Shown piece after piece: positions 8,464 through 21,042 of a DNA stretch of 64,000 nucleotides. This stretch comes from Nitrospira sp. GTDB lineage: Bacteria > Nitrospirota > Nitrospiria > Nitrospirales > Nitrospiraceae. The stretch's first letter is position 1, and every line of letters starts with the position of its first letter. The DNA is taken from the NCBI GenBank assembly GCA_024998595.1, contig JACOEK010000001.1:186001-250000 (forward strand), in the 5' to 3' direction. The position numbers and the translations under genes were made by a program. The notes beneath the pieces are model-generated. The model was not told the origin of the DNA, did no database searches, and saw only the letters and a program-made list of their open reading frames with translations.

Positions 8464-8493
8464 TTGACGCATCAACTTTTGTTGTTGTATTAT
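8464..8493 (+). promoter_or_regulatory. sigma-70 type promoter of the ars operon
   Basis: TTGACG (8464-8469) and TATTAT (8488-8493) are separated by 18 nt. A CAAC-TTTT-GTTG inverted repeat (8473-8484) lies between them, where an ArsR-type repressor would block RNA polymerase. Transcription should begin about 7 nt after the -10 box, at or next to the arsR ATG at 8500, which predicts a leaderless or nearly leaderless mRNA. Confidence 0.55.
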
Positions 8494-8499
8494 GGCTCC

Positions 8500-8823
8500 A
8501 TGACCACGAACACCGGCAAAAGCCTCCCGACCGTCGCTCGCATTTTTCACGCATTATCTGAGGAGACACGATTACAGATTCTCGAGCACTTAAAAGAAGG
8601 CGAGCAATGTGTGTGCGATCTTACAGGAGTGTTTAAGACCGGGCAGTCACGACTTTCTTTTCATCTCCGAGTGCTGAAAGAGGCGGGCTTAATCCTGGCT
8701 CGACCTGAAGGGCGATGGGTGTATTACTCGCTCAATGCGGACGCGGTTGAAGAACTGCAGGAAGTGGTGAATTCACTCAAAGCGTCATCGTATCGCGCTG
8801 CTAAGCGAGGGTGTTGCCCCTGA
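8500..8823 (+). CDS. arsR: ArsR/SmtB-family arsenic-responsive repressor
   Basis: The protein is 107 residues, the usual ArsR length, with a winged helix-turn-helix: VARIFHALSEETRLQILEHL, then the recognition helix GQSRLSFHLRVLKEAGL and the wing RPEGRWVYYSLN. The metal-binding pair CVC lies in the GEQCVCDL helix, the classical arsenite site. The C-terminus ends in a further CC pair. It should repress the downstream efflux and modification genes until As(III) binds. ATG 8500 is preferred over the upstream in-frame TTG 8464, because the latter coincides with the -35 box. Confidence 0.92.
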   Translation: MTTNTGKSLPTVARIFHALSEETRLQILEHLKEGEQCVCDLTGVFKTGQSRLSFHLRVLKEAGLILARPEGRWVYYSLNADAVEELQEVVNSLKASSYRAAKRGCCP

Positions 8824-8875
8824 CATTTTTTTGCCTTTATTCATCAATATTAATTGATTTTGCGCGATAACTAAT

Positions 8876-9982
8876 ATGGACACCGTTGGAACCCTCGAGC
8901 AGCAGACTCTTCCGACAGAGAAACAGCTTAGTCTTTTCGAACGCTATCTTACCGTCTGGGTGGGGCTCTGTATGGTCGCGGGGGTCGTGTTGGGCAAATC
9001 TATGCCCGGCGTCATTCAGGCAATGCGAGCGATGGAATTGGGGCAGGACAGTCATGTGAATTTCCCCATGGCCGTTCTGATCTGGCTGATGATCACTCCT
9101 ATGATGATGAAAGTAGATTTTCGCGCCGTGGCGAAGGTCGGCCAACGTCCTCAAGGCTTACTGGTCACCCTGTTTGTGAATTGGGTCGTGAAACCATTCT
9201 CTATGGCCCTCTTCGCCTGGATCTTTTTTCGATTCATGTTCTCAGCCTGGATGACATCGGGAGACGCGGATCAGTACATCGCCGGTGCCATCATCCTCGC
9301 CGCCGCCCCCTGCACAGCCATGGTGTTTGTGTGGAGTTATCTCACTGATGGTGATCCTGCCTATACCCTGGTCCAGGTTTCCGTGAACGATTTGATTATG
9401 TTGGTACTGTTTGCGCCTATCGTTGGTCTCCTGGTCAGCGGTGCATCTTCGCTCACTGTGCCGGTTGCTGTACTCGTGTATTCAGTCGTGGGTTTTATTG
9501 TCATTCCGTTGGTATTGGGAGTCCTGATCCGGCAGTGGTTCATCAACCAACGAGGAAAGACGTGGTTTGAGGATACGCTCCTTCCGCAATTTGCTCCTAT
9601 CACCATTGCCGCGCTGCTCGTAACACTGGTCCTGATTTTTGCCTTTCAAGCGGACAATATTCTAGGTAAACCACTACACGTCCTGCTGATTGCGATCCCC
9701 ATACTTCTGCAAGTGTATTTCAATGCGTCCTTGACCTACGGCTTGATGAAATGGTTGAAGGTCCCCTATGCGGTTGCTGCACCTGGAGCGCTGATTGGAG
9801 CAAGCAATTTTTTTGAACTCGCCGTGGCCACGGCAATTGCGTTGTTTGGCCCAGAATCTGGAGCCGCCTTGGCCACAGTCGTGGGTGTGCTCGTCGAAGT
9901 CCCCGTCATGCTGTCCGTGTGTCATATGTGTAACCGTACCCGACATTGGTTTCCTTCGAACGAGGCGACAGCAGTCTCTTGA
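8876..9982 (+). CDS. acr3: ACR3-family arsenite efflux transporter
   Basis: The protein is 368 residues with about ten hydrophobic helices. It matches ACR3 throughout: LSLFERYLTVWVGLCMVAGV at the N-terminus, MMKVDFRAVAKVGQRPQG, and the essential Cys in AAAPCTAMVFVWSYLTDGDP. It exports arsenite across the inner membrane using the proton gradient. The gene follows arsR after 52 nt. No strong ribosome binding site precedes the ATG, so translation may depend on coupling or a weak site. Confidence 0.95.
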   Translation: MDTVGTLEQQTLPTEKQLSLFERYLTVWVGLCMVAGVVLGKSMPGVIQAMRAMELGQDSHVNFPMAVLIWLMITPMMMKVDFRAVAKVGQRPQGLLVTLFVNWVVKPFSMALFAWIFFRFMFSAWMTSGDADQYIAGAIILAAAPCTAMVFVWSYLTDGDPAYTLVQVSVNDLIMLVLFAPIVGLLVSGASSLTVPVAVLVYSVVGFIVIPLVLGVLIRQWFINQRGKTWFEDTLLPQFAPITIAALLVTLVLIFAFQADNILGKPLHVLLIAIPILLQVYFNASLTYGLMKWLKVPYAVAAPGALIGASNFFELAVATAIALFGPESGAALATVVGVLVEVPVMLSVCHMCNRTRHWFPSNEATAVS

Positions 9983-10084
9983 ACGGAACACTCAGATTCG
10001 TCTGGTTAATGAAGTTGTTGATGGAGACCAGCCGGCGATCAGTCGCTCAACTGTTCACCGACTGTTTACAAAAGGAGACTCAAT

Positions 10085-10555
10085 ATGAAGCGATTACATC
10101 TGCATGTCGGCGTAGAGAATCTCAGCGAAGGTATCAGCTTCTACACAGCACTCTTTGGGGTCCCTCCAATGAAGACAAAGCAGGACTATGCGAAGTGGCT
10201 GTTGGATGATCCTCGCGTGAACTTTGCTATCTCGACTCGGGCAAAGAAGGGGGTTGACCACCTGGGCATCCAGGTTGACGAAGAGGCAGAACTGGCAGAG
10301 GTGAGGGAGCGCCTGAAAGCGAAGGATGTCACCCTGACGGATGAGGGTGAAACGATCTGCTGTTACGCACGGTCGGAAAAATCATGGATTCAAGATCCGT
10401 CCGGGATAGCCTGGGAGGCCTATCGGACGATGGAGGATGTTCAACTCTTCTCAGGAGGAGAAGCCTCTGGCGAGGCCGCCTGTTGCACACCGCTGACCAT
10501 GGCGACGCCGAATTGTTGTGAACCATCTGGAAAAACCGCAGGGTGTTGCGACTAA
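10085..10555 (+). CDS. arsI: ArsI-type C-As lyase (VOC-fold dioxygenase)
   Basis: The protein is 156 residues with one VOC/glyoxalase fold. Candidate Fe(II) ligands are a His in LHLHVGVENL, the His in GVDHLGIQVD and the Glu in AWEAY. The vicinal Cys pair in ETICCYARSEKSW is the organoarsenical-binding site of ArsI, which cleaves trivalent methyl- or aryl-arsenicals to As(III). CadI-like proteins share the fold, so cadmium binding is an alternative. The C-terminal 30 residues add three more CC pairs. AAGGAGA precedes the start. Its TAA overlaps the arsC ATG by one base. Confidence 0.85.
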   Translation: MKRLHLHVGVENLSEGISFYTALFGVPPMKTKQDYAKWLLDDPRVNFAISTRAKKGVDHLGIQVDEEAELAEVRERLKAKDVTLTDEGETICCYARSEKSWIQDPSGIAWEAYRTMEDVQLFSGGEASGEAACCTPLTMATPNCCEPSGKTAGCCD

Positions 10556-10992
10556 TGCAGGGCAAACCCATCAACGTATTGGTTCTCTGCACGGGGAATT
10601 CCTGCCGTTCGATCATGGCGGAAACGTTGATCAACGCCCTCCGCCCTGGCCGCTACCGAGCCGTGAGCGCGGGCAGCCATCCGACAGGATATGTGCACCC
10701 GAAATCCATCGAGACGCTGAAGCGACATGGGATCGATCCAGGTCAGCCCCGTAGCAAATCGTGGAATGAATTCGCGAGTGAAACCTTCGATTTGGTGATT
10801 ACGGTATGTGATCAGGCCGCAGGAGAAAGCTGTCCGTTGTTCCAGGGGGCACCCACGAAGATGCATTGGAGTACGCCCGACCCCGCCAAAGCGACTGGAT
10901 CGGGCGCCGAAGTGAATGCTGCCTTCGACGAGGCGTTCCTGATGCTAAAAGCACGCATTGAACAGCTGCCCAACGACCCTCTTAGATTTTAG
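10555..10992 (+). CDS. arsC: arsenate reductase, low-molecular-weight phosphatase type
   Basis: The protein is 145 residues. The P-loop VLCTGNSCRS near the N-terminus is the LMW protein tyrosine phosphatase-like active site CX5R of thioredoxin-linked ArsC. A downstream Cys pair in TVCDQAAGESCP supplies the disulfide relay. It reduces As(V) to As(III) for export by Acr3. ATG 10555 overlaps the arsI stop (TAATG), implying translational coupling. An upstream in-frame GTG at 10543 lies inside arsI and is less likely. Confidence 0.93.
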   Translation: MQGKPINVLVLCTGNSCRSIMAETLINALRPGRYRAVSAGSHPTGYVHPKSIETLKRHGIDPGQPRSKSWNEFASETFDLVITVCDQAAGESCPLFQGAPTKMHWSTPDPAKATGSGAEVNAAFDEAFLMLKARIEQLPNDPLRF

Positions 10993-11334: not shown

Positions 11335-12285
11335 ATGCGTATTGTATTCATGGGAACACCTGACTTCGCCGTGCCCTCGTTGGAGGCGTTGCTCAAATCT
11401 GATGATCAGGTCGTTGGTGTGGTGACGCAGCCCGATCGGCCGAAGGGCCGCGGTCAAGAGGTCATTCCTTCCCCGGTGAAAGTTGTGTGCCAGCGCGAGG
11501 GCATTCCTCTGCTCCAGCCGCTGAAGATGAAGGATCCTGCTTTTCTTGACGCATTGCGCGTATGGAAGCCGGATGTGATCGCGGTGACCGCCTTCGGCCG
11601 TATCCTCCCCCCGGTCATTCTGACTTTGCCCCCGCGAGGCTGCATCAACGTGCACGGATCGCTGTTGCCAAAGTATCGCGGGGCAGGTCCGGTGCAATGG
11701 GCCATCATCAGAGGGGAACGGGAAACAGGCATCACGACGATGTTCATGGCTGAAGGCATGGATACCGGCGACATGCTGCTGCGTGAGACCGTGGAGATCC
11801 GTCCTGATGATACCGCCGGCACGCTGGCTCCCCGTCTTGCCGATGTCGGTGGTCGTTTGTTGGTCGAGACCATGCGTCGACTCAAGGCGGGGACGCTCAC
11901 CCCGGAGCGACAGGATGATGCGCAGGCGACCATGGCGCCGCTGCTCAAGAAGGAAGACGGACAGATCGATTGGACCCTGTCAGCGACGGACATCGCAAAC
12001 CGTGTGCGCGGCCTCTCTCCTTGGCCAGGGGCGTTTACATTTGTACACGGCGAGCGGTGGACCCTGTGGCGGGTTGCGATCGGCGAGGAGTTTCCAGCAG
12101 CGAGTCCAGGCACCGTGACGAAAGTGACAAAAGACCGAGTCGAGGTGGCGACAGGGGGTGGAACCATCCACATTCTCGACATTCAGCCATCCAATAGCCG
12201 TCGGATGACGATGGCGCAATACTTGGCAGGTCATCGTTTGACTGAAGGCCTTAGCCTGCAAGCTGTTCCGCCGTCACAGAGCTGA
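11335..12285 (+). CDS. fmt: methionyl-tRNA formyltransferase
   Basis: The protein is 316 residues, the family length. It transfers a formyl group from 10-formyl-THF to initiator Met-tRNA. The catalytic formyl-transferase domain shows HGSLLPKYRGAGPVQWAI (SLLPxYRG signature) and MAEGMDTGDML. A C-terminal OB-fold domain follows from about 205. It starts MRIVFMGTPDFAVPSLEAL, so the first ATG is right. Usually def precedes fmt; here def is absent and rsmB follows after 60 nt. Confidence 0.97.
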   Translation: MRIVFMGTPDFAVPSLEALLKSDDQVVGVVTQPDRPKGRGQEVIPSPVKVVCQREGIPLLQPLKMKDPAFLDALRVWKPDVIAVTAFGRILPPVILTLPPRGCINVHGSLLPKYRGAGPVQWAIIRGERETGITTMFMAEGMDTGDMLLRETVEIRPDDTAGTLAPRLADVGGRLLVETMRRLKAGTLTPERQDDAQATMAPLLKKEDGQIDWTLSATDIANRVRGLSPWPGAFTFVHGERWTLWRVAIGEEFPAASPGTVTKVTKDRVEVATGGGTIHILDIQPSNSRRMTMAQYLAGHRLTEGLSLQAVPPSQS

Positions 12286-12345: not shown

Positions 12346-13785
12346 ATGGGAACTGATCCGCAACCAGCACCAGCCGCGCACGCGGTATCTCCCGGGCGAC
12401 ATGCCGCCGTGAAGGCGCTGTTGGCCATCGATCAGGCCGGCCTGTTGGAGGATGACTTGTTCGATCAGGTCTCGTCCAAAGCCGGGCTGGATCTCCGCGA
12501 TCGGGCATTCATGGTGGAACTCGTGCGCGGTGTCTTGCGATATCGCGCGACGCTCGATTGGCGTCTGGGCCTCTTGTCCGACCGGCGCATCGCTAAACTT
12601 CCCACCCTCGTGCAAATCATGTTGCGCCTCGGCGCTTATCAAGTGCTGTATTTGGACCGGGTGCCGGATTCAGCGGCGGTGAACGAATCCGTACAGATGA
12701 CGAAACAGCTTCGCCGGCGCCTGGGGCGAGACTGGAGCGGATTCGTCAATGCCGTGCTCAGGTCCATGCTGCGAGCGTCTCCGCCGGAGTGGCCGGATGT
12801 CACGAAGGGTCCTGTCGAGGCGTTGTCCGTTCGGTACTCCTGCCCGGCGTGGCTGGTGGAGCGTTGGTGTCGACTCTGGGGACCTGAACGTGCCGAATCC
12901 CTGTGCCGAGCCTCAGTAGAAGTGCCACCAATAACGCTTCGCGTAAACCGGCTTCGAACTACGCGGGCGGCGTTATTGACCGCCTTGGGCGCGGCGCAGG
13001 TGGACGCGAGTCCGACGTCGATCAGTGAGGTCGGCATTCAATTGGATCGCACCGCTTCCGTAGCAGACCTGCCCGGATACGCGGCAGGCCATTTTTATGT
13101 CGAGGACGAAGCGGGGCAATTGGTGCCCTTGCTGCTAAATGTGCAGCCGGGACAGCGGGTGTTGGATGCCTGCGCAGCGCCTGGTGGCAAGGCGACGCAT
13201 ATCGCTGCGCTCATGGAGAATCGAGGTGAAATCATCGCGGTAGACCGGGCCGCTATACGTCTTGACCTCGTGATGGACAACTGTCGACGCCTGGGGGTGG
13301 AGATTGTGACACCCATCGTGGGTGATATAAGGCGACTGTTGGGTGGGGAGGCTGCGCCAGGCGAGCAGAGCCTGTCTAGCTCGTCGCTTGAAGTGTGGTC
13401 TCGCCCGTTCGATCGGATTTTACTCGATGCGCCGTGCAGCGGCCTCGGCGTGCTGCGGCGTCATCCAGAAGGCAAGTGGTACAAGACGCCGGAATCCATC
13501 GCGCAACATCGGCAGGTGCAGTTGGAATTGCTCGCCGCGACGAGTCGTCTCTTGCGGCCTGGCGGGGTGTTGGTCTATAGTACCTGCTCGATTGAGCTCG
13601 AAGAAACCGAATCAGTCATCGACGAGTTTTGTCAGTCTCATCGTGAATTTCAGCGCGACTCGATTGCGCCTTGGTTGCCCCCAGCCGGTCTGCCGTTCCT
13701 GACCCCTCGAGGGGACCTATCTACGATGGCCAATATGAATCATATGGATGCGTTTTTTGCCGCCCGTATACGGAGGAGCGAATAA
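12346..13785 (+). CDS. rsmB: 16S rRNA m5C967 methyltransferase
   Basis: The protein is 479 residues. An N-terminal NusB-like RNA-binding domain (about 20-155) is followed by a Rossmann methyltransferase domain. The SAM motif is DACAAPGGKATHIA. The two catalytic Cys lie in DAPCSGLGVLRRHPEGKW (motif IV) and YSTCSIELEE (motif VI). It methylates C967 of 16S rRNA. The stop TAA shares one base with the rpe ATG. The fmt-rsmB-rpe order is a common bacterial arrangement. Confidence 0.95.
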   Translation: MGTDPQPAPAAHAVSPGRHAAVKALLAIDQAGLLEDDLFDQVSSKAGLDLRDRAFMVELVRGVLRYRATLDWRLGLLSDRRIAKLPTLVQIMLRLGAYQVLYLDRVPDSAAVNESVQMTKQLRRRLGRDWSGFVNAVLRSMLRASPPEWPDVTKGPVEALSVRYSCPAWLVERWCRLWGPERAESLCRASVEVPPITLRVNRLRTTRAALLTALGAAQVDASPTSISEVGIQLDRTASVADLPGYAAGHFYVEDEAGQLVPLLLNVQPGQRVLDACAAPGGKATHIAALMENRGEIIAVDRAAIRLDLVMDNCRRLGVEIVTPIVGDIRRLLGGEAAPGEQSLSSSSLEVWSRPFDRILLDAPCSGLGVLRRHPEGKWYKTPESIAQHRQVQLELLAATSRLLRPGGVLVYSTCSIELEETESVIDEFCQSHREFQRDSIAPWLPPAGLPFLTPRGDLSTMANMNHMDAFFAARIRRSE

Positions 13786-14489
13786 TGGCCGGCAGAACCG
13801 TGTGCATCGCCCCGTCCATTCTGTCGGCAGATTTTGCGCGCTTGGCCGAAGAGGTCGCCCGGGTAGAAGAGGCGGGTGCCGACTGGTTGCATGTGGACGT
13901 GATGGATGGTCACTTCGTGCCGAACTTGACGATCGGACCCCCAGTGGTTGAAGCGCTCAGAAAGGTCACCACTCTCCCGCTGGATGTGCATCTGATGATG
14001 ACCAATCCGGATGCGTTCATCGGGGAGTTTGCCGAGGCCGGCGCCGACTACCTCACCGTCCATGTGGAAACCTGTCCCCACTTGCATCGGACCGTGCAGT
14101 TGATCAAGGAGCGCGGGGTGAAGGCGGGGGTCACCTTGAATCCCGCCACACCGGCGATCACCCTGTCCGAAATCGTCTGCGACGCCGATCTCATCCTCAT
14201 CATGTCTGTGAACCCCGGTTTCGGTGGGCAAAAATTCATTCCATCGTCCTTACAAAAGATTGCGAGCGTCCGGGCCATGATCGACCGCACTCACAGCCAC
14301 GCGTTGCTCGAGGTAGACGGGGGCGTGAAACCGGACAATGCGGAGGCCATTCTCGCGGCCGGGGCCGACGTGTTGGTTGCAGGCTCAGCGGTGTTTTCCG
14401 AGCACGACTATGCCGCCGCCATTTCCGCGCTCCGGGCCGGTCATGTACCACCGCCACGGACCAATAGGATTGTAGCCGCTCAGCGATAG
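13785..14489 (+). CDS. rpe: ribulose-phosphate 3-epimerase
   Basis: The protein is 234 residues, a complete TIM barrel. It interconverts ribulose-5-P and xylulose-5-P in the pentose phosphate pathway. Signature stretches are APSILSADFARLAEEV, LHVDVMDGHFVPNLTIGP, DVHLMMTNPD, SVNPGFGGQKFIP and EVDGGVKPDNA, including the metal-binding His/Asp residues. ATG 13785 overlaps the rsmB stop and follows GGAGGAG, so translation is coupled. Confidence 0.97.
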   Translation: MAGRTVCIAPSILSADFARLAEEVARVEEAGADWLHVDVMDGHFVPNLTIGPPVVEALRKVTTLPLDVHLMMTNPDAFIGEFAEAGADYLTVHVETCPHLHRTVQLIKERGVKAGVTLNPATPAITLSEIVCDADLILIMSVNPGFGGQKFIPSSLQKIASVRAMIDRTHSHALLEVDGGVKPDNAEAILAAGADVLVAGSAVFSEHDYAAAISALRAGHVPPPRTNRIVAAQR

Positions 14490-14513: not shown

Positions 14514-16058
14514 ATGGATAACCTTCATCCCCTCGAAAGCAAAGTGCTGCTGGCGTTGGCTCCGCAGCCTGGCTCGCCTTGTACGCTCGATCAACTCGCG
14601 GAATCCACCGGGCTGGAACCCTCGCAGTTGAGTATGGCCGTCGAATGGCTCTTGGCCAAATCCCTGATTGCCGTACACGCTGAAACCGTGGCGTATATCG
14701 CTTCGCTGACTCCGGTCGGTGAGGTGTTTTTCGAGAAGTACGCCCCGATTGAACGCGTGCTGTCGGCGGCGCGGGAAGCCGGGCAGACTGGAAAACGCCT
14801 GACGATTCAGGATATCCAGGCCAAAGAATCGCTCGAACCGTCGGATGTCAGTAAGGCGGTCGGGACCCTGAAGAAAGAGGGATCCATCCTGATCGTGCAG
14901 GGCGGATGTATTGAAAGTACCGGACGGAATAGCGCTACGGCAGAGGCGATGCGCGCCCTGTTGCAGGAGTTGCGGAGCGGGCAGCGGGAGCTACAGACAT
15001 TTGCTGAACCCTTGCGGGCCGTGCTTCAACAGCATGCGGTCAAGCGCGGCAATGCGCGCGAGCCCTTCCGGGTCGATGAACGGGTGACGCGCTCGTTTCT
15101 GCTGACGCCATCCGGCCAGGAGGTGGCAGACCAATTGTCGCGCGACGGCGTGGCGGACGAAGTCTCGCAATTGACGCCCGAACTCCTGAAGGAAGGCGCC
15201 TGGCGAACGAAGCAGTTCCGAAAATATACGATCAGTTTGCGGGCCCCGAGGATCGCGGCCGGGAAACGGCATCCTTACAGGGAGTTTCTGGATCTTGTGA
15301 AACTCAAGCTGGTCAGCATGGGCTTTCAAGAAATGCGCGGAACGCTCGTTGAGACCGAGTTCTGGAATATGGACGCGCTGTTCATGCCGCAGTTTCATCC
15401 CGCGCGGGACATCCACGATGTCTATTTTGTAAAGAATCCGACCCATGCCCGTGACATTGCCGAGCCGTTTCTGACGAACGTGACGCAGGTTCATGAAAGT
15501 GGAACGGGCGCTGGATCGACGGGCTGGGGGTATCAGTTCGATGCCGAACGCGCGAAGCGATTGGTGTTGCGGAGCCAGGGGACTGCGGTCTCTGCGCGTA
15601 GGCTGGCGACGAGCCCGTCCGTGCCGGGAAAGTACTTCTCTATCGCCCGCTGTTTTCGTTATGACCAGGTGGACGCCACCCATGCGACCGATTTTTTTCA
15701 GGTGGAAGGGATCGTCCTGGGCTCGGATATCAACTTCCGGACGTTGTTGGGATTGTTGAATCTCTTCGCCCGCGAAGTGGCGCAGGCCAAGGAAGTGAAA
15801 TTTCTTCCGGCCTATTTCCCTTTCACCGAACCATCAGTCGAGATGCATGTGCGCCATCCGAAGCTGGGTTGGATGGAGTTGGGCGGCGCGGGATTATTCC
15901 GGCCTGAAGTCACGACGCCGCTCGGCGTCTCGGTGCCGGTGATTGCCTGGGGTCTCGGGCTGGATCGCATGGCGATGGTGGCGTTGGGCATTCACGATAT
16001 TCGCGACCTCTTTTCGGCAGATTTGGAATTCATTCGAACCATGCGGGGAAGTTTTTAG
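14514..16058 (+). CDS. pheS: phenylalanyl-tRNA synthetase alpha subunit, archaeal/eukaryotic type
   Basis: The protein is 514 residues, against about 330-350 for the ordinary bacterial alpha subunit. Two N-terminal winged-helix segments (about 1-75 and 95-135, then a third-like region near 190) replace the bacterial coiled coil; this is the archaeal/eukaryotic architecture. The class II core has FWNMDALFMPQFHPARD, motif 2 at YFSIARCFRYDQVDATH, and motif 3 at WGLGLDRMAMVALGIHDIRD, which resembles archaeal enzymes. It charges tRNA-Phe together with the adjacent beta subunit. It starts 25 nt after rpe, so it has been absorbed into a bacterial operon. Confidence 0.92.
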   Translation: MDNLHPLESKVLLALAPQPGSPCTLDQLAESTGLEPSQLSMAVEWLLAKSLIAVHAETVAYIASLTPVGEVFFEKYAPIERVLSAAREAGQTGKRLTIQDIQAKESLEPSDVSKAVGTLKKEGSILIVQGGCIESTGRNSATAEAMRALLQELRSGQRELQTFAEPLRAVLQQHAVKRGNAREPFRVDERVTRSFLLTPSGQEVADQLSRDGVADEVSQLTPELLKEGAWRTKQFRKYTISLRAPRIAAGKRHPYREFLDLVKLKLVSMGFQEMRGTLVETEFWNMDALFMPQFHPARDIHDVYFVKNPTHARDIAEPFLTNVTQVHESGTGAGSTGWGYQFDAERAKRLVLRSQGTAVSARRLATSPSVPGKYFSIARCFRYDQVDATHATDFFQVEGIVLGSDINFRTLLGLLNLFAREVAQAKEVKFLPAYFPFTEPSVEMHVRHPKLGWMELGGAGLFRPEVTTPLGVSVPVIAWGLGLDRMAMVALGIHDIRDLFSADLEFIRTMRGSF

Positions 16059-16070
16059 GACCATCACATC

Positions 16071-17789
16071 ATGCCCACCATTTCCCTACAACGAGACGAT
16101 CTTGAGGCGCTGATCGCCGGACCTGACGCCACGCCGTCCCGTATTGCGATCGACCAGCTTGAGCAATGGCTGATGTTGGTGAAAGGGGAGTTGAAGGGCC
16201 ACAATACCGAAACCGGTGAATTGCGGATCGAGCTGCAGGACAGCAACCGGCCGGATTTGTGGTGTTGCGAAGGGATTGCGCGGCAGATCAGAATCAAGCA
16301 GCAGGGCGCGGCGGCTTCCTACCCTTTTTTTAAAAAACAGAAACGCGTCGCCGGAAAACTCGTGGTGGCTCCGGGGCTGGAACACGTGCGGCCCTATGTG
16401 GCGGCCTGTACGGCGATAGGCTATCGGGTGACCGCATCCGGTCTGACGCAACTGATTCAGACACAGGAAAAGTTGGCGGACATTTTCGGGCGCAAGCGCC
16501 GCTCGGTGTCCATTGGCCTCTATCGTCTGGCGCCGATTGTGTTTCCCGTGTCGTACGATCTGGTGAAGCCGGATGACGTGCGGTTCACGCCGTTGGGCAT
16601 GGAAACGGTGATGACCCTGCGCGAGATCCTCATGGTTCATCCCAAAGGCGTGGAGTACGGCGGCATCGTGAGCGGCCACGATCGCCTTCCGGTATTGCGT
16701 GACGCGAAGGGGCAGGTCTTATCGTTTCCCCCGATCATCAACAGCCGGGAGATCGGCGAGGTGCAGGTGGGCGACGACCAACTGTTCGTAGAGGTGACGG
16801 GAACGGACCTCCATATGGTCGCGCTGACGCTGAATATTTTTGCCGCGAACCTTGCCGACCGGGGAGCCGTGATTACGCCGGTGGAAATTCAGTCGCCCGT
16901 GAAAACCGCCTTCGGCAAACGCTGGCACACTCCGATCGATTTCGGCGCGCCGCGGACGATTCCACTCAAGGCCATCGAAACCGCGTTGGGAGATGCGTTA
17001 GGGAGTAGGGAAGTCACGACGGCACTCAAGTCCTATGGCTACACGGTGAAATCAGCCGGACCCAAGGTGGCCGTGCAGTTGCCCCCGTATCGCAACGATC
17101 TGTTGCATACCGTCGATGTGGTGGAGGATGTGGCAATCAGTCAGGGCTATTCACGGTTTGCTCCGGTCATGCCGTCGCAGTTTACGGTGGGAGGGCTTTC
17201 CCGGTTGGAGCAAATGGCCGATCGGGTCCGTCATCTCATGGTGGGAATGGAGTTTCAGGAAATCATTTCCAACATCATGGGATCTCATCAAGACTTTTGC
17301 ACGCGCATGCGCGTGGATGGCACTGAGTGGGCGAAGGTCGTGGAAGTGGATAATGTGATGTCCCTCAGCTATTCCTGCCTGCGCCAGTGGATCACCCCTT
17401 CGTTGCTGCAGGTCGAGACGAATTCAAGCCGGGCGTTTTATCCGCATCGTATGTTCGAGGTCGGTGAAGTGGCCGTTCCCGATGCGAGTGCCGATGTCGG
17501 GTCACGAACGATCACAAGATTGGGTGCGGTCATTGCCCATGCCGGAGCGCATTTCTCAGAAATCCATTCCTGCTTGGATTTGCTGCTCTATTATTTGGAC
17601 CGTTCGTTTACCTTGGAACCGGTTCCTCACCCGTCGTTCCTTGAGGGCAGGGCGGGAAGAATCATGCTGAATGGGCGAGTCATCGGACTGCTCGGAGAGT
17701 TACATCCTGAGGTGTTGGAGCACTGGCAGATCGGGGTGCCGACAGTCGCGCTGGAGTTGGAAATCGATCGATTACTGGATGAGGCGTGA
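16071..17789 (+). CDS. pheT: phenylalanyl-tRNA synthetase beta subunit, archaeal/eukaryotic type
   Basis: The protein is 572 residues, against about 800 in typical bacteria. It lacks the N-terminal EMAP-II-like tRNA-binding domain and the C-terminal FDX-ACB domain. It starts with the archaeal B1-type segment containing LQDSNRPDLWCCEGIARQIR, followed by the B3/B4 region and a B5 domain (PPYRNDLLHTVDVVEDVAIS). Whether a B3/B4 editing site is active cannot be told from the sequence by eye. The gene lies 12 nt after pheS. Its stop codon lies within the stem of a terminator hairpin. Confidence 0.92.
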   Translation: MPTISLQRDDLEALIAGPDATPSRIAIDQLEQWLMLVKGELKGHNTETGELRIELQDSNRPDLWCCEGIARQIRIKQQGAAASYPFFKKQKRVAGKLVVAPGLEHVRPYVAACTAIGYRVTASGLTQLIQTQEKLADIFGRKRRSVSIGLYRLAPIVFPVSYDLVKPDDVRFTPLGMETVMTLREILMVHPKGVEYGGIVSGHDRLPVLRDAKGQVLSFPPIINSREIGEVQVGDDQLFVEVTGTDLHMVALTLNIFAANLADRGAVITPVEIQSPVKTAFGKRWHTPIDFGAPRTIPLKAIETALGDALGSREVTTALKSYGYTVKSAGPKVAVQLPPYRNDLLHTVDVVEDVAISQGYSRFAPVMPSQFTVGGLSRLEQMADRVRHLMVGMEFQEIISNIMGSHQDFCTRMRVDGTEWAKVVEVDNVMSLSYSCLRQWITPSLLQVETNSSRAFYPHRMFEVGEVAVPDASADVGSRTITRLGAVIAHAGAHFSEIHSCLDLLLYYLDRSFTLEPVPHPSFLEGRAGRIMLNGRVIGLLGELHPEVLEHWQIGVPTVALELEIDRLLDEA

Positions 17790-17825
17790 CGGGAAACTCC
17801 GTTCAATCAGGACTTTCCCGTCACG
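17785..17825. terminator. bidirectional hairpin between pheT and rplT
   Basis: CGTGACGGGAAA (17785-17796) pairs perfectly with TTTCCCGTCACG (17814-17825) around a 17-nt loop. It overlaps the pheT stop codon and lies 19 bases from the rplT stop. The position between convergent operons suits a two-way terminator, although T-runs are short on both sides. Confidence 0.65.
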
Positions 17826-17843
17826 AACTATGAGACGTACCCG

Positions 17844-18212
17844 CTAGCTCGCTGCAGTGGCGAGTTGCTGTTTGGCAACCCCGACGAGTTTTTCAAACCC
17901 CGCCATATCCCGGATCGCCATATCGGACAGGACTTTCCGATCCAGCAAGATGTTCGCCTTCTTCAGGGCATTCATGAAGCGGCTATACGCGATGCCATGC
18001 AAACGGGTGGCGGCGCTGATGCGCGCAATCCAGAGTTGGCGGAAGTCGCGCTTGCGGTGCTTTCGTCCGGCGTAGGCATAGGCCTGCCCTTTATCGACTG
18101 ATTCAGTTGCTGTTCGGAACAGCCGGCTTTTCGCGCCATACTGGCCTTTCGCCAGTTTCAGGCGCTTCTTTCGCCGCTGTCGTGTTTTCGGACCACCTTT
18201 TGTACGGGGCAT
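17844..18212 (-). CDS. rplT: 50S ribosomal protein L20
   Basis: The protein is 122 residues and full length. The basic N-terminal extension RQRRKKRLKLAKGQYGAKSR, which threads into 23S rRNA, is followed by the globular domain with KRDFRQLWIARISAA. In many bacteria L20 represses its own operon through an rpmI-rplT leader site. It is the last gene of thrS-infC-rpmI-rplT. Confidence 0.98.
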   Translation of the reverse strand: MPRTKGGPKTRQRRKKRLKLAKGQYGAKSRLFRTATESVDKGQAYAYAGRKHRKRDFRQLWIARISAATRLHGIAYSRFMNALKKANILLDRKVLSDMAIRDMAGFEKLVGVAKQQLATAAS

Positions 18213-18256: not shown

Positions 18257-18454
18257 TTATTGCGGAAGCAACTTGTTCAATGCGGGAGTCGAGGCGGAGG
18301 ATACTTCCGTCGCCCCTTTCAGGTTCCGCTTGCGATCGCGCGGCTTGCCGGTCAACAAGTGTCGACCGCCGGCCTTTCGACGAACCAGTTTGCCCGTTCC
18401 CGTGCGTCGGAACCGCTTCTTCGCGCCGCTGTGGGTTTTCATCTTAATCTTCAT
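18257..18454 (-). CDS. rpmI: 50S ribosomal protein L35
   Basis: The protein is 65 residues, beginning MKIKMKTHSGAKKRFRRTGT, the canonical L35 start. It is a small basic 23S rRNA-binding protein. It lies 33 nt after infC and 44 nt before rplT in the standard order. Confidence 0.97.
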   Translation of the reverse strand: MKIKMKTHSGAKKRFRRTGTGKLVRRKAGGRHLLTGKPRDRKRNLKGATEVSSASTPALNKLLPQ

Positions 18455-18487: not shown

Positions 18488-18994
18488 CTATTTGGGAGCC
18501 AGAATCATGATCAGGCTCCGCCCTTCCATCCTCGGCGCAAACTCGACGGTCCCTGCTTCCGTGCACTGCTGAATCACACTCGTCATCATCGTGCGGCCCA
18601 TTTCCTGATTGGCCATTTCACGCCCGCGATACGTGAGCGTCACCTTGGTTTTGTTCCCGTCGGCCAGGAATTCTTTGATCTGACGGATCTTGATCTCAAG
18701 GTCATGTTTGTCGGTGCGCGGTCGCAGCTTGATCTCCTTGACCTGCGTCGACTTCTGGTGCCGCCGGCTCTGGTGATCTTTTTTGCTCAGCTCGAACTTA
18801 TACTTCCCATAGTCCATGATACGGCAAACCGGCGGCTGCGAGGTCGGGGCAACCTCAACAAGATCGTAGCCCCCTTCCTGTGCCTTATTGAATGCCTCTA
18901 CGGTCGGCAGTATTCCCAATTGCTCGCCGTCAGGACCGATGACTCGAACTTCCCGAATCCTGATTTCCCGGTTTACGCGTAATTTAGGGACGAT
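18488..18994 (-). CDS. infC: translation initiation factor IF-3, probable AUC start
   Basis: The 168-residue frame covers the whole of IF-3: the N-terminal domain with LRVNREIRIREVRVIGPDG and LGILPTVEAFNKAQEGGYDL, a linker, then the C-terminal 30S-binding domain with KEIKLRPRTDKHDLEIKIRQ. The conserved N-terminus lies upstream of every ATG, GTG or TTG that could start a full-length protein. In that frame a stop codon lies two codons before ATC 18994. GAGGTGA ends 4 nt before ATC, so AUC is the likely start. IF-3 normally discriminates against such codons, giving autoregulation, as known for AUU in E. coli infC. Confidence 0.85.
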   Translation of the reverse strand: MVPKLRVNREIRIREVRVIGPDGEQLGILPTVEAFNKAQEGGYDLVEVAPTSQPPVCRIMDYGKYKFELSKKDHQSRRHQKSTQVKEIKLRPRTDKHDLEIKIRQIKEFLADGNKTKVTLTYRGREMANQEMGRTMMTSVIQQCTEAGTVEFAPRMEGRSLIMILAPK

Positions 18995-18997
18995 AGG

Positions 18998-20953
18998 TCA
19001 CCTCGTTTGTGAGTGGGTTGCTGTGTCGCGTAGTGATTGATTCGTGTCTGTGCGGATGAGTTCCAGGAATTGTTCGATCGGCATAGTCCCATGGTCGGCC
19101 TTGCTTCGACCGCGAACCGCCACCATGCCGCTCTGCACTTCCTTGTCGCCCACCACCAGCATATAAGGGATTTTGTTCTTTTCCGCTTCTCGGATCTTGA
19201 AGCCGATCTTCTCGTTGCGGAGGTCTGCTTCAACCCGGTAGCCGTGGCTCTTGAGCGTGGAGACGATCTTGGCCGCGAATTCTTGTTGATGATCGGTGAT
19301 CGTGAGCACCACTGCCTGAACCGGGGCCAGCCACGTTGGAAAGGCGCCGGCATAGTGTTCGATCAAGATGCCGAAGAAGCGCTCAATCGATCCCATGAGC
19401 GCTCGATGAATCATAATGGGCTGGTGGTGTTTGCCGTCTTCACCGGTATAGGCCAGCTTGAAGCGCTCGGGATTGTTGAAGTCGACTTGAACCGTCGAGC
19501 ATTGCCAGGAACGGCCGAGAACGTCCTTAATCTTGATGTCGATTTTCGGGCCATAGAACACGCCTTCACCCGGATCCACCTGATACGCCACGTTCCGGCT
19601 TTTAAGCGCAGCCTCCAAGGCGTTGGTAGCAACAGTCCAGTTCTCATCCGAACCGACCGATTTCTCAGGGCGGGTCGAGAGGTAGATTTCAAATTCCGAA
19701 AACCCGAAAGTGCCGAGGACGAAAAAGGTAAAGTCCAGCACGCGGCTGACTTCAGCCTCGATCTGATCGGGTCGACAGAACAAATGCGCGTCATCCTGGG
19801 TAAAGCCTCGGACCCGCAGCAGGCCATGCAGCACGCCGGTTCGTTCGTAACGATAGACGGTGCCCAATTCTCCGTACCGGATCGGCAAATCCCGATAGCT
19901 GCGCAAATGAGATTTGTAGATCATGATATGGAAGGGACAGTTCATCGGCTTGAGCTGATATTCGCTGCCTTCCAACTTCATCGAGGCGAACATGTTTTCG
20001 CGGTAGTAGTCGACGTGGCCGCTGGTTTTCCACAAATCGAGCCTGGCGACATGTGGTGAGTAGACCAGATCGTATCCATCCTTGATATGCTGCTCTCGCC
20101 AGAAATTTTCGATGAGCAGGCGGATCAGCGACCCCTTGGGGTGCCACAGGACCAAGCCGGGGCCGATTTCGTCCTGAATCGTGATCAGGTCGAGCTCTTT
20201 GCCGAGTTTGCGATGGTCGCGCCGTTTGATCTCCTCGAGTTTCGCCAGATGGGCATCAAGTTCCTTTTTTGAGGGGAACGAGGTGCCGTACACCCGTTGC
20301 AGCATGGGATTACGTTCGTCGCCCCGCCAATAGGCGCCTCCAGTAGAGAGGAGCTTGAACGCACCCACGTAGCCGGTGGTGGGAAGGTGCGGTCCTCGAC
20401 AAAGATCGACAAATTCTCCCTGGCGGTAGAGGGAAATAGGGGAGCCGTCCTCGAAACTATTGATCAATTCGACTTTATAGGCTTCGCCGCGGTCCTGAAA
20501 AAACTTGATCGCATCTGCTTTAGACAGCTCGCTTCGACTGACGGTCAAGCTACGTTTAGTGATTTCAATGGCGCGCGCTTCGATCTGTTCCAGGTCTTCC
20601 GGGGTGAACGGTCGGTCGAACGCGAAATCGTAATAGAAGCCGTCTTCTAGCGCCGGGCCGATCGTGAGTTGCGCAGTAGGAAACACTTCCTTTACGGCCT
20701 GAGCCATAATGTGAGTGCTGCTGTGGCGATAGACTTCGCGCCCCTCTGCCGATTCAAAGGTCAAGGGTTCGACGGTCGCGTCTTGATCCAACGCATGAAA
20801 CAAGTCCATCGGCGCACCGTTCACCTTGGCGGCCAAGATCTTGCCGTCGAGGCGTCCGCCCGTCGGAGTTAAGGCGTCGCGGACGGTGCATCCTGTTGGT
20901 ACTTGTTTTCGAGTTCCGTCAGGAAGGGTGATGTGAATGAACTGTGAGGCCAC
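18998..20953 (-). CDS. thrS: threonyl-tRNA synthetase
   Basis: The protein is 651 residues from GTG 20953. Order of domains: TGS (FIHITLPDGTRKQVPTG), the SAD/editing domain with HSSTHIMAQAVKEVFP, the class II core (GPGLVLWHPKGSLIR, MNCPFHIMIYKS, RYERTGVLHGLLRVRGFTQD) and the anticodon-binding domain. GTG 20953 fits the usual TGS start and has AGGA 9 nt upstream. An in-frame TTG lies six codons earlier. The end of the gene carries the infC ribosome binding site. Confidence 0.96.
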   Translation of the reverse strand: MASQFIHITLPDGTRKQVPTGCTVRDALTPTGGRLDGKILAAKVNGAPMDLFHALDQDATVEPLTFESAEGREVYRHSSTHIMAQAVKEVFPTAQLTIGPALEDGFYYDFAFDRPFTPEDLEQIEARAIEITKRSLTVSRSELSKADAIKFFQDRGEAYKVELINSFEDGSPISLYRQGEFVDLCRGPHLPTTGYVGAFKLLSTGGAYWRGDERNPMLQRVYGTSFPSKKELDAHLAKLEEIKRRDHRKLGKELDLITIQDEIGPGLVLWHPKGSLIRLLIENFWREQHIKDGYDLVYSPHVARLDLWKTSGHVDYYRENMFASMKLEGSEYQLKPMNCPFHIMIYKSHLRSYRDLPIRYGELGTVYRYERTGVLHGLLRVRGFTQDDAHLFCRPDQIEAEVSRVLDFTFFVLGTFGFSEFEIYLSTRPEKSVGSDENWTVATNALEAALKSRNVAYQVDPGEGVFYGPKIDIKIKDVLGRSWQCSTVQVDFNNPERFKLAYTGEDGKHHQPIMIHRALMGSIERFFGILIEHYAGAFPTWLAPVQAVVLTITDHQQEFAAKIVSTLKSHGYRVEADLRNEKIGFKIREAEKNKIPYMLVVGDKEVQSGMVAVRGRSKADHGTMPIEQFLELIRTDTNQSLRDTATHSQTR

Positions 20954-21042
20954 TCCGGTCAATCCTGCCAAAAAAATACAACGTCGTGCCGACCACCCCC
21001 ACTGCCGGTAATCGGATCACGAACTTCTTGAGCGAACCAAAA

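Follow-up and report, generated by a model that had tools for sequence, protein, structure and literature searches.

How does a bacterium come to carry a phenylalanyl-tRNA synthetase (PheRS) of archaeal build, and does it have another one? The question is raised by a 64,000-nucleotide stretch of Nitrospira sp. (assembly GCA_024998595.1, contig JACOEK010000001.1, positions 186,001 to 250,000), hereafter called the window. In it, a first-pass annotation made from the sequence alone had described pheS and pheT as an archaeal/eukaryotic-type pair and proposed that it had replaced the native pair by transfer.

The pheST locus and its products

The window contains the following features around pheST:

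fmt, 11335..12285, plus strand: TIGR00460; first gene of a probable operon
rsmB, 12346..13785, plus strand: TIGR00563; upstream part of the probable operon
rpe, 13785..14489, plus strand: TIGR01163; 24 bp upstream of pheS
pheS, 14514..16058, plus strand: archaeal-type PheRS alpha subunit, 514 aa (NF003210, PF01409, AlphaFold2 model and Foldseek)
pheT, 16071..17789, plus strand: archaeal-type PheRS beta subunit, 572 aa (TIGR00471, Pfam, alignment to P. horikoshii 2cxi)
inverted repeat, 17785..17825, no strand: perfect 12-bp arms CGTGACGGGAAA with a 17-base spacer, in the pheT-rplT gap
rplT, 17844..18212, minus strand: TIGR01032; convergent with pheT
rpmI, 18257..18454, minus strand: TIGR00001
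infC, 18488..18919, minus strand: TIGR00168
thrS, 18998..20971, minus strand: TIGR00418

The TIGR models confirmed the neighborhood as annotated, with pheST behind fmt-rsmB-rpe on one strand and opposite rplT-rpmI-infC-thrS on the other. The stop codons of the convergent pheT and rplT genes are 54 bp apart, and that of pheT sits within the first arm of the inverted repeat. The gap folds with -25.8 kcal/mol (z -4.6), and the repeat probably forms a hairpin shared by the two genes. Upstream of fmt (8464-10992), the sequence reads as an ordinary arsenic-type set comprising an ArsR-like regulator, an ACR3-like transporter and an ArsC-like phosphatase.

The positions and lengths given for pheS and pheT were exact, and the N-terminal winged helices of PheS were recovered. 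PheS matched the archaeal model NF003210 with 580 bits and is laid out as three N-terminal winged-helix/HTH-like modules (residues ~1-211) followed by a class II catalytic core (238-509). A MarR-type winged helix scored above the Pfam cutoff at residues 4-54, and the AlphaFold2 model (pLDDT 87.6) contained three HTH-like modules in residues 1-211. The top Foldseek match of this model, human cytosolic PheRS alpha (3l4g_C), was aligned along its full length; in a VIA-align comparison, coverage was confined to the catalytic core.

PheT passed the archaeal model TIGR00471 (pheT_arch; 461 bits, cutoff 283) and stayed below the bacterial model TIGR00472 (pheT_bact; 105 bits, cutoff 403). A Pfam scan of the pair detected B5 and CLM domains in addition to the catalytic domain. 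The annotation had named bacterial B1/FDX-ACB domains as possible counterevidence and had described PheT, with its 572 residues, as devoid of EMAP-II-like and FDX-ACB domains. Indeed, Pfam found neither EMAP-II/tRNA_bind (B2) nor FDX-ACB (B8) in PheT, so that both bacterial domains are absent. The AlphaFold2 model of PheT (pLDDT 88.5) matched 3l4g_B and 2cxi, the latter at 1.7 A, and the solved structures nearest to the pair were eukaryotic cytosolic PheRS and P. horikoshii PheT. In the 2cxi alignment, L209, S218, E241 and T243 correspond to the P. horikoshii editing-site residues L202, S211, D234 and T236; equivalents of the editing site are thus kept. The third of these positions varies between D and E, with E in both the window PheT and human 3l4g_B. 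Together with the trees described below, sequence, domain content and fold model confirm that the window pheST is of the archaeal type.

A bacterial-type pheST elsewhere in the genome, for which the annotation had advised a search, was not found: the 99.4%-complete window genome yielded no second pheS or pheT. There was a weak extra match to TIGR00472, but it lies in the tRNA-binding domain of a presumptive MetRS ORF, and a hidden second bacterial-type pheST was rejected. We conclude that the window pheST is the sole PheRS of the genome.

Kinship and distribution of the archaeal-type pair

Trees were built for PheS, PheT and both joined from archaeal and non-spirochaete bacterial sequences. 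Both subunits fell inside archaeal-type PheRS and not among ordinary bacterial enzymes. All archaeal-type Nitrospirota copies formed one clade with Fermentibacterota and one planctomycete (support 100), on which the PheS, PheT and joined trees agreed. Its sister comprised Thermococcus, Methanofastidiosia and DPANN archaea (support 96), and a Bathyarchaeota subgroup was the next branch out. The kin of the pair are archaeal, and a eukaryotic origin is unsupported, the pair nesting beside those archaea in a tree of archaeal and bacterial sequences. A second bacterial clade (support 100), comprising WOR-3, other Planctomycetia and Myxococcota, lies elsewhere among the archaea, which shows at least two acquisitions by bacteria in the sequences sampled. 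The planctomycete in the first clade is the MAG ACE_NR_PLAN1, whose archaeal-type PheST lies among Nitrospirota (support 90) and apart from other Planctomycetia; a transfer between phyla is likely in this case.

The immediate donor may have been another bacterium, Fermentibacterota-like or of an unsampled lineage, with the archaeal origin one step earlier. We give this reading slightly less than an even chance. It is in line with the single clade of Nitrospirota, Fermentibacterota and one planctomycete nested among Nitrospirota, with the long stem of that clade (0.57 in the joined tree) and with U20 in the tRNA-Phe of Fermentibacterota as well, but no sequence pinpoints a donor, and a single entry from an archaeon into any member of the clade, with later spread, fits equally. 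A tblastn search of plasmids for spirochaete-type PheS gave no match reaching 80% coverage of PheS, and viral contigs gave only weak matches (26-28% identity) to the PheS catalytic core.

We surveyed 296 Nitrospirota genomes with the PheT models at their cutoffs. The archaeal type was over the cutoff in 158 and the bacterial type in 127. Archaeal-type matches were present in all sampled families of the window's class (f1-f12) and, outside it, in six families (f13, f14, f17, f20, f21 and f37). Archaeal-type PheRS is therefore not peculiar to the window genome and spans nearly all of its class. Since the pair is class-wide and its GC content (0.58-0.59) is like that of its neighbors and of the window, a recent acquisition was ruled out, and pheST was acquired long ago. 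In a sample of genome contigs, the archaeal-type PheS motif occurred in Nitrospira moscoviensis and other Nitrospirota, Fermentibacterota, some Planctomycetota, a Myxococcota-like MAG, WOR-3 and many archaea. Bacterial-type PheT was over the cutoff in 43 of 59 Planctomycetota and 48 of 58 Myxococcota genomes, making the archaeal type a minority there. A literature search that missed most subscription journals turned up no paper naming a PheRS of the archaeal type in Nitrospira.

Two further observations concern the bacterial-type enzyme. In most families outside the window's class (loci L043, L084, L049, L051 and L041), bacterial-type PheT lacks the EMAP-II-like B2 domain through a deletion of ~100 residues between the two parts of B1, while f15, f18 and genome G135 retain B2. 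PheT without B2 is common in Planctomycetota too and has been reported for CPR bacteria (PMC5370408). Furthermore, a cyanobacterial MAG, Tildeniella torsiva (G303; L102, L213, L302), has a full bacterial-type PheT, while other contigs carry an archaeal-type PheS and, separately from it, an archaeal-like PheT; this double set represents either contamination or an accessory PheRS.

Gene history and gene order within the phylum

The bacterial-type PheT of Nitrospirota (f15, f18 and the remaining families) grouped together among other bacteria with a support of 91-92, under the 95 mark. This grouping suggests, though not strongly, that the bacterial-type pair is probably ancestral in the phylum. 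The bacterial-type PheT of G135 (f27; L082), with B2 kept, fell outside the other Nitrospirota copies of its type, and either a separate transfer or contamination would account for it.

The RpoB tree placed f37 as the sister of bacterial-type families (98) and f17 together with f15 (90). Uniting all archaeal-type Nitrospirota in one clade was rejected for RpoB (AU test, p = 0.007), and a grouping of f17 with f37 was weakly rejected (p = 0.036). In contrast, the joined PheST tree had f17 and f37 as sisters (100), with f20 next (95). These results imply either a spread of the archaeal pair between lineages of the phylum or the sorting of two coexisting pairs. Replacement by transfer, as first proposed, is supported by the trees, the sole copy and the synteny, but not as a single clean event: the pair is class-wide and old, and its history within the phylum is tangled. 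As for RpoB itself, no rpoB match was obtained in the 99.4%-complete window assembly, although the gene is present in a congener, and an assembly gap is the probable cause; f21 RpoB (L293, L294) is ~1725 aa long and has a large insertion between model positions ~220 and 255-270.

The sorting of coexisting pairs would mean that the ancestor of the phylum, or several lineages, had both pairs and lost them differentially, f17, f37 and the window's class keeping the archaeal and others the bacterial one, with no transfer within the phylum. We regard this as rather unlikely. A PheST clade of archaeal-type Nitrospirota that leaves out f17 and f37 was not rejected (AU test, p = 0.08, short of 0.05), and the bacterial-type PheT look vertically inherited. 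Yet two essential pairs would have had to coexist for long, and among the genomes checked by name, both types were present only in the apparently unrelated cyanobacterial MAG. Moreover, f20 is the PheST neighbor of f17 and f37, contrary to RpoB, and the archaeal pair of f37 sits in the bacterial slot.

This slot was visible in sister families: at 10 of 15 loci, the bacterial-type pair came immediately behind rplT and shared its strand. The archaeal-type pair was tail-to-tail with rplT at 16 loci including the window, with a gap of <1 kb in 12 of them and usually behind rpe; the rpe-pheS linkage recurs across the phylum. In nine archaeal-type loci read, some at contig ends, rplT was absent from the stretch. 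The two f37 genomes had their archaeal pair in the canonical slot and strand after rplT, and their thrS-infC-rplT-rpmI block was sister to that of bacterial-type lineages (support 99). Holding all archaeal-type lineages together in the thrS-block tree gave a borderline result (AU p = 0.058, short of 0.05). On the far side of pheT, no gene was common to f37 and bacterial-type lineages, and so the slot is marked by the rplT side alone.

A chance insertion of the archaeal pair beside rplT or elsewhere, with separate loss of the bacterial pair and an rplT adjacency that says nothing about replacement, is improbable. In its favor, most archaeal-type lineages have the pair in the opposite orientation, linkage to rpe is roughly as frequent as linkage to rplT, and rplT is not nearby in f13 and f17. 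Yet chance adjacency to a given gene end would be expected at about 1 in 3,000 genes, and two configurations are seen, one of them that of f37, which matches the old slot and strand exactly. The gene order thus supports replacement of the bacterial by the archaeal pair, in f37 at the old position itself and in the window's class either there or next to it. For the earlier proposal of an exchange at or near the old locus, this means that sister families do keep their pair after rplT and that f37 fills that slot, whereas "at the old locus" is inferred from gene order.

tRNA-Phe and the probable replacement of PheRS

G20 is an identity base of archaeal/eukaryotic tRNA-Phe (PMC9976931), and pairs of PheRS and tRNA-Phe of the archaeal/eukaryotic and the bacterial kind are reported not to cross-react (PMC3275996). 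In the window genome, a pattern search found one tRNA-Phe, with U20, A26:G44, U45, U59, G34-A35-A36 and A73; the first four of these are bacterial traits. G20, the feature that typically accompanies archaeal/eukaryotic-type PheRS in its substrate, is thus absent there; it was present in the tRNA-Phe of Thermococcus and of a DPANN archaeon. U20 or C20 was seen in every one of the 17 tRNA-Phe read, that of the window genome among them; they came from Nitrospirota of both PheRS types and from Fermentibacterota, a sample that leaves out f17, f37, f2 and most bacterial-type families. We conclude that tRNA-Phe kept its bacterial form; presumably, it was the enzyme, not the tRNA, that adapted.

In summary, we consider it very likely that the sole PheRS of this genome is of archaeal build, that an archaeal-origin pair took over from a lost bacterial pair and that the bacterial tRNA-Phe was kept. 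As judged from sequence, the locus would encode an (alpha-beta)2 enzyme, with the PheS catalytic core predicted to form Phe-adenylate and charge tRNA-Phe, and the B3/B4 site of PheT predicted to hydrolyze Tyr-tRNA-Phe. The N-terminal winged helices of PheS presumably provide contacts to the anticodon and the tRNA core in place of the bacterial B8. The ancestral bacterial pair behind rplT was probably lost, and the archaeal-origin pair probably took its position or one next to it; in the window's class, pheST would then have become the tail of the fmt-rsmB-rpe unit, tail-to-tail with rplT. The same chromosomal neighborhood is known from E. coli (thrS-infC-rpmI-rplT-pheM-pheS-pheT), from which Nitrospira differs in enzyme type and, in its class, in orientation. 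The domain plan, fold and editing-site residues are like those of P. horikoshii and human (3l4g) PheRS; unlike archaeal and eukaryotic cytosolic PheRS, the Nitrospira enzyme works in a bacterium with a tRNA-Phe without G20.

A similar exchange is known in spirochaetes. Spirochaeta, Borrelia and Treponema have archaeal-type PheRS with alpha subunits of 513-528 aa and beta subunits of 514-573 aa (Andam and Gogarten 2011, PMC3191353); both subunits were transferred together, replacing the bacterial form, and an affinity to Thermococcales was reported (PMC3191353). Both Nitrospira subunits are likewise archaeal-type and, in trees of non-spirochaete sequences, fall in the same archaeal neighborhood. 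Unlike the spirochaete case, ours concerns a different phylum and adds the gene order at the old slot and an unchanged tRNA-Phe. CPR bacteria have archaeal-type TyrRS and TrpRS with archaeal tRNA identity (PMC5370408). These, too, are archaeal-derived synthetases in bacteria, but the tRNA-Phe genes read on the Nitrospira side are bacterial.

The enzyme has a predicted ordinary function and an unusual history. It provides a large, well-resolved further case of the swap known in spirochaetes; interdomain replacement of PheRS, so far described for one spirochaete family, now takes in an entire class of environmentally important bacteria, the nitrite oxidizers and their relatives. PheRS type is a marker for the history of the phylum, and its sister lineages have one enzyme or the other with a tRNA and an operon that hardly differ. 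Since the two kinds of pairs are reported not to cross-react (PMC3275996), an archaeal-type PheRS on a U20 tRNA makes retuning of tRNA recognition directly testable. More tentatively, an essential synthetase may have been swapped between domains repeatedly at one slot within one phylum, the incoming archaeal PheRS being retuned to the bacterial U20 tRNA-Phe. If true, this would offer a natural series for mapping the adaptation of tRNA recognition.
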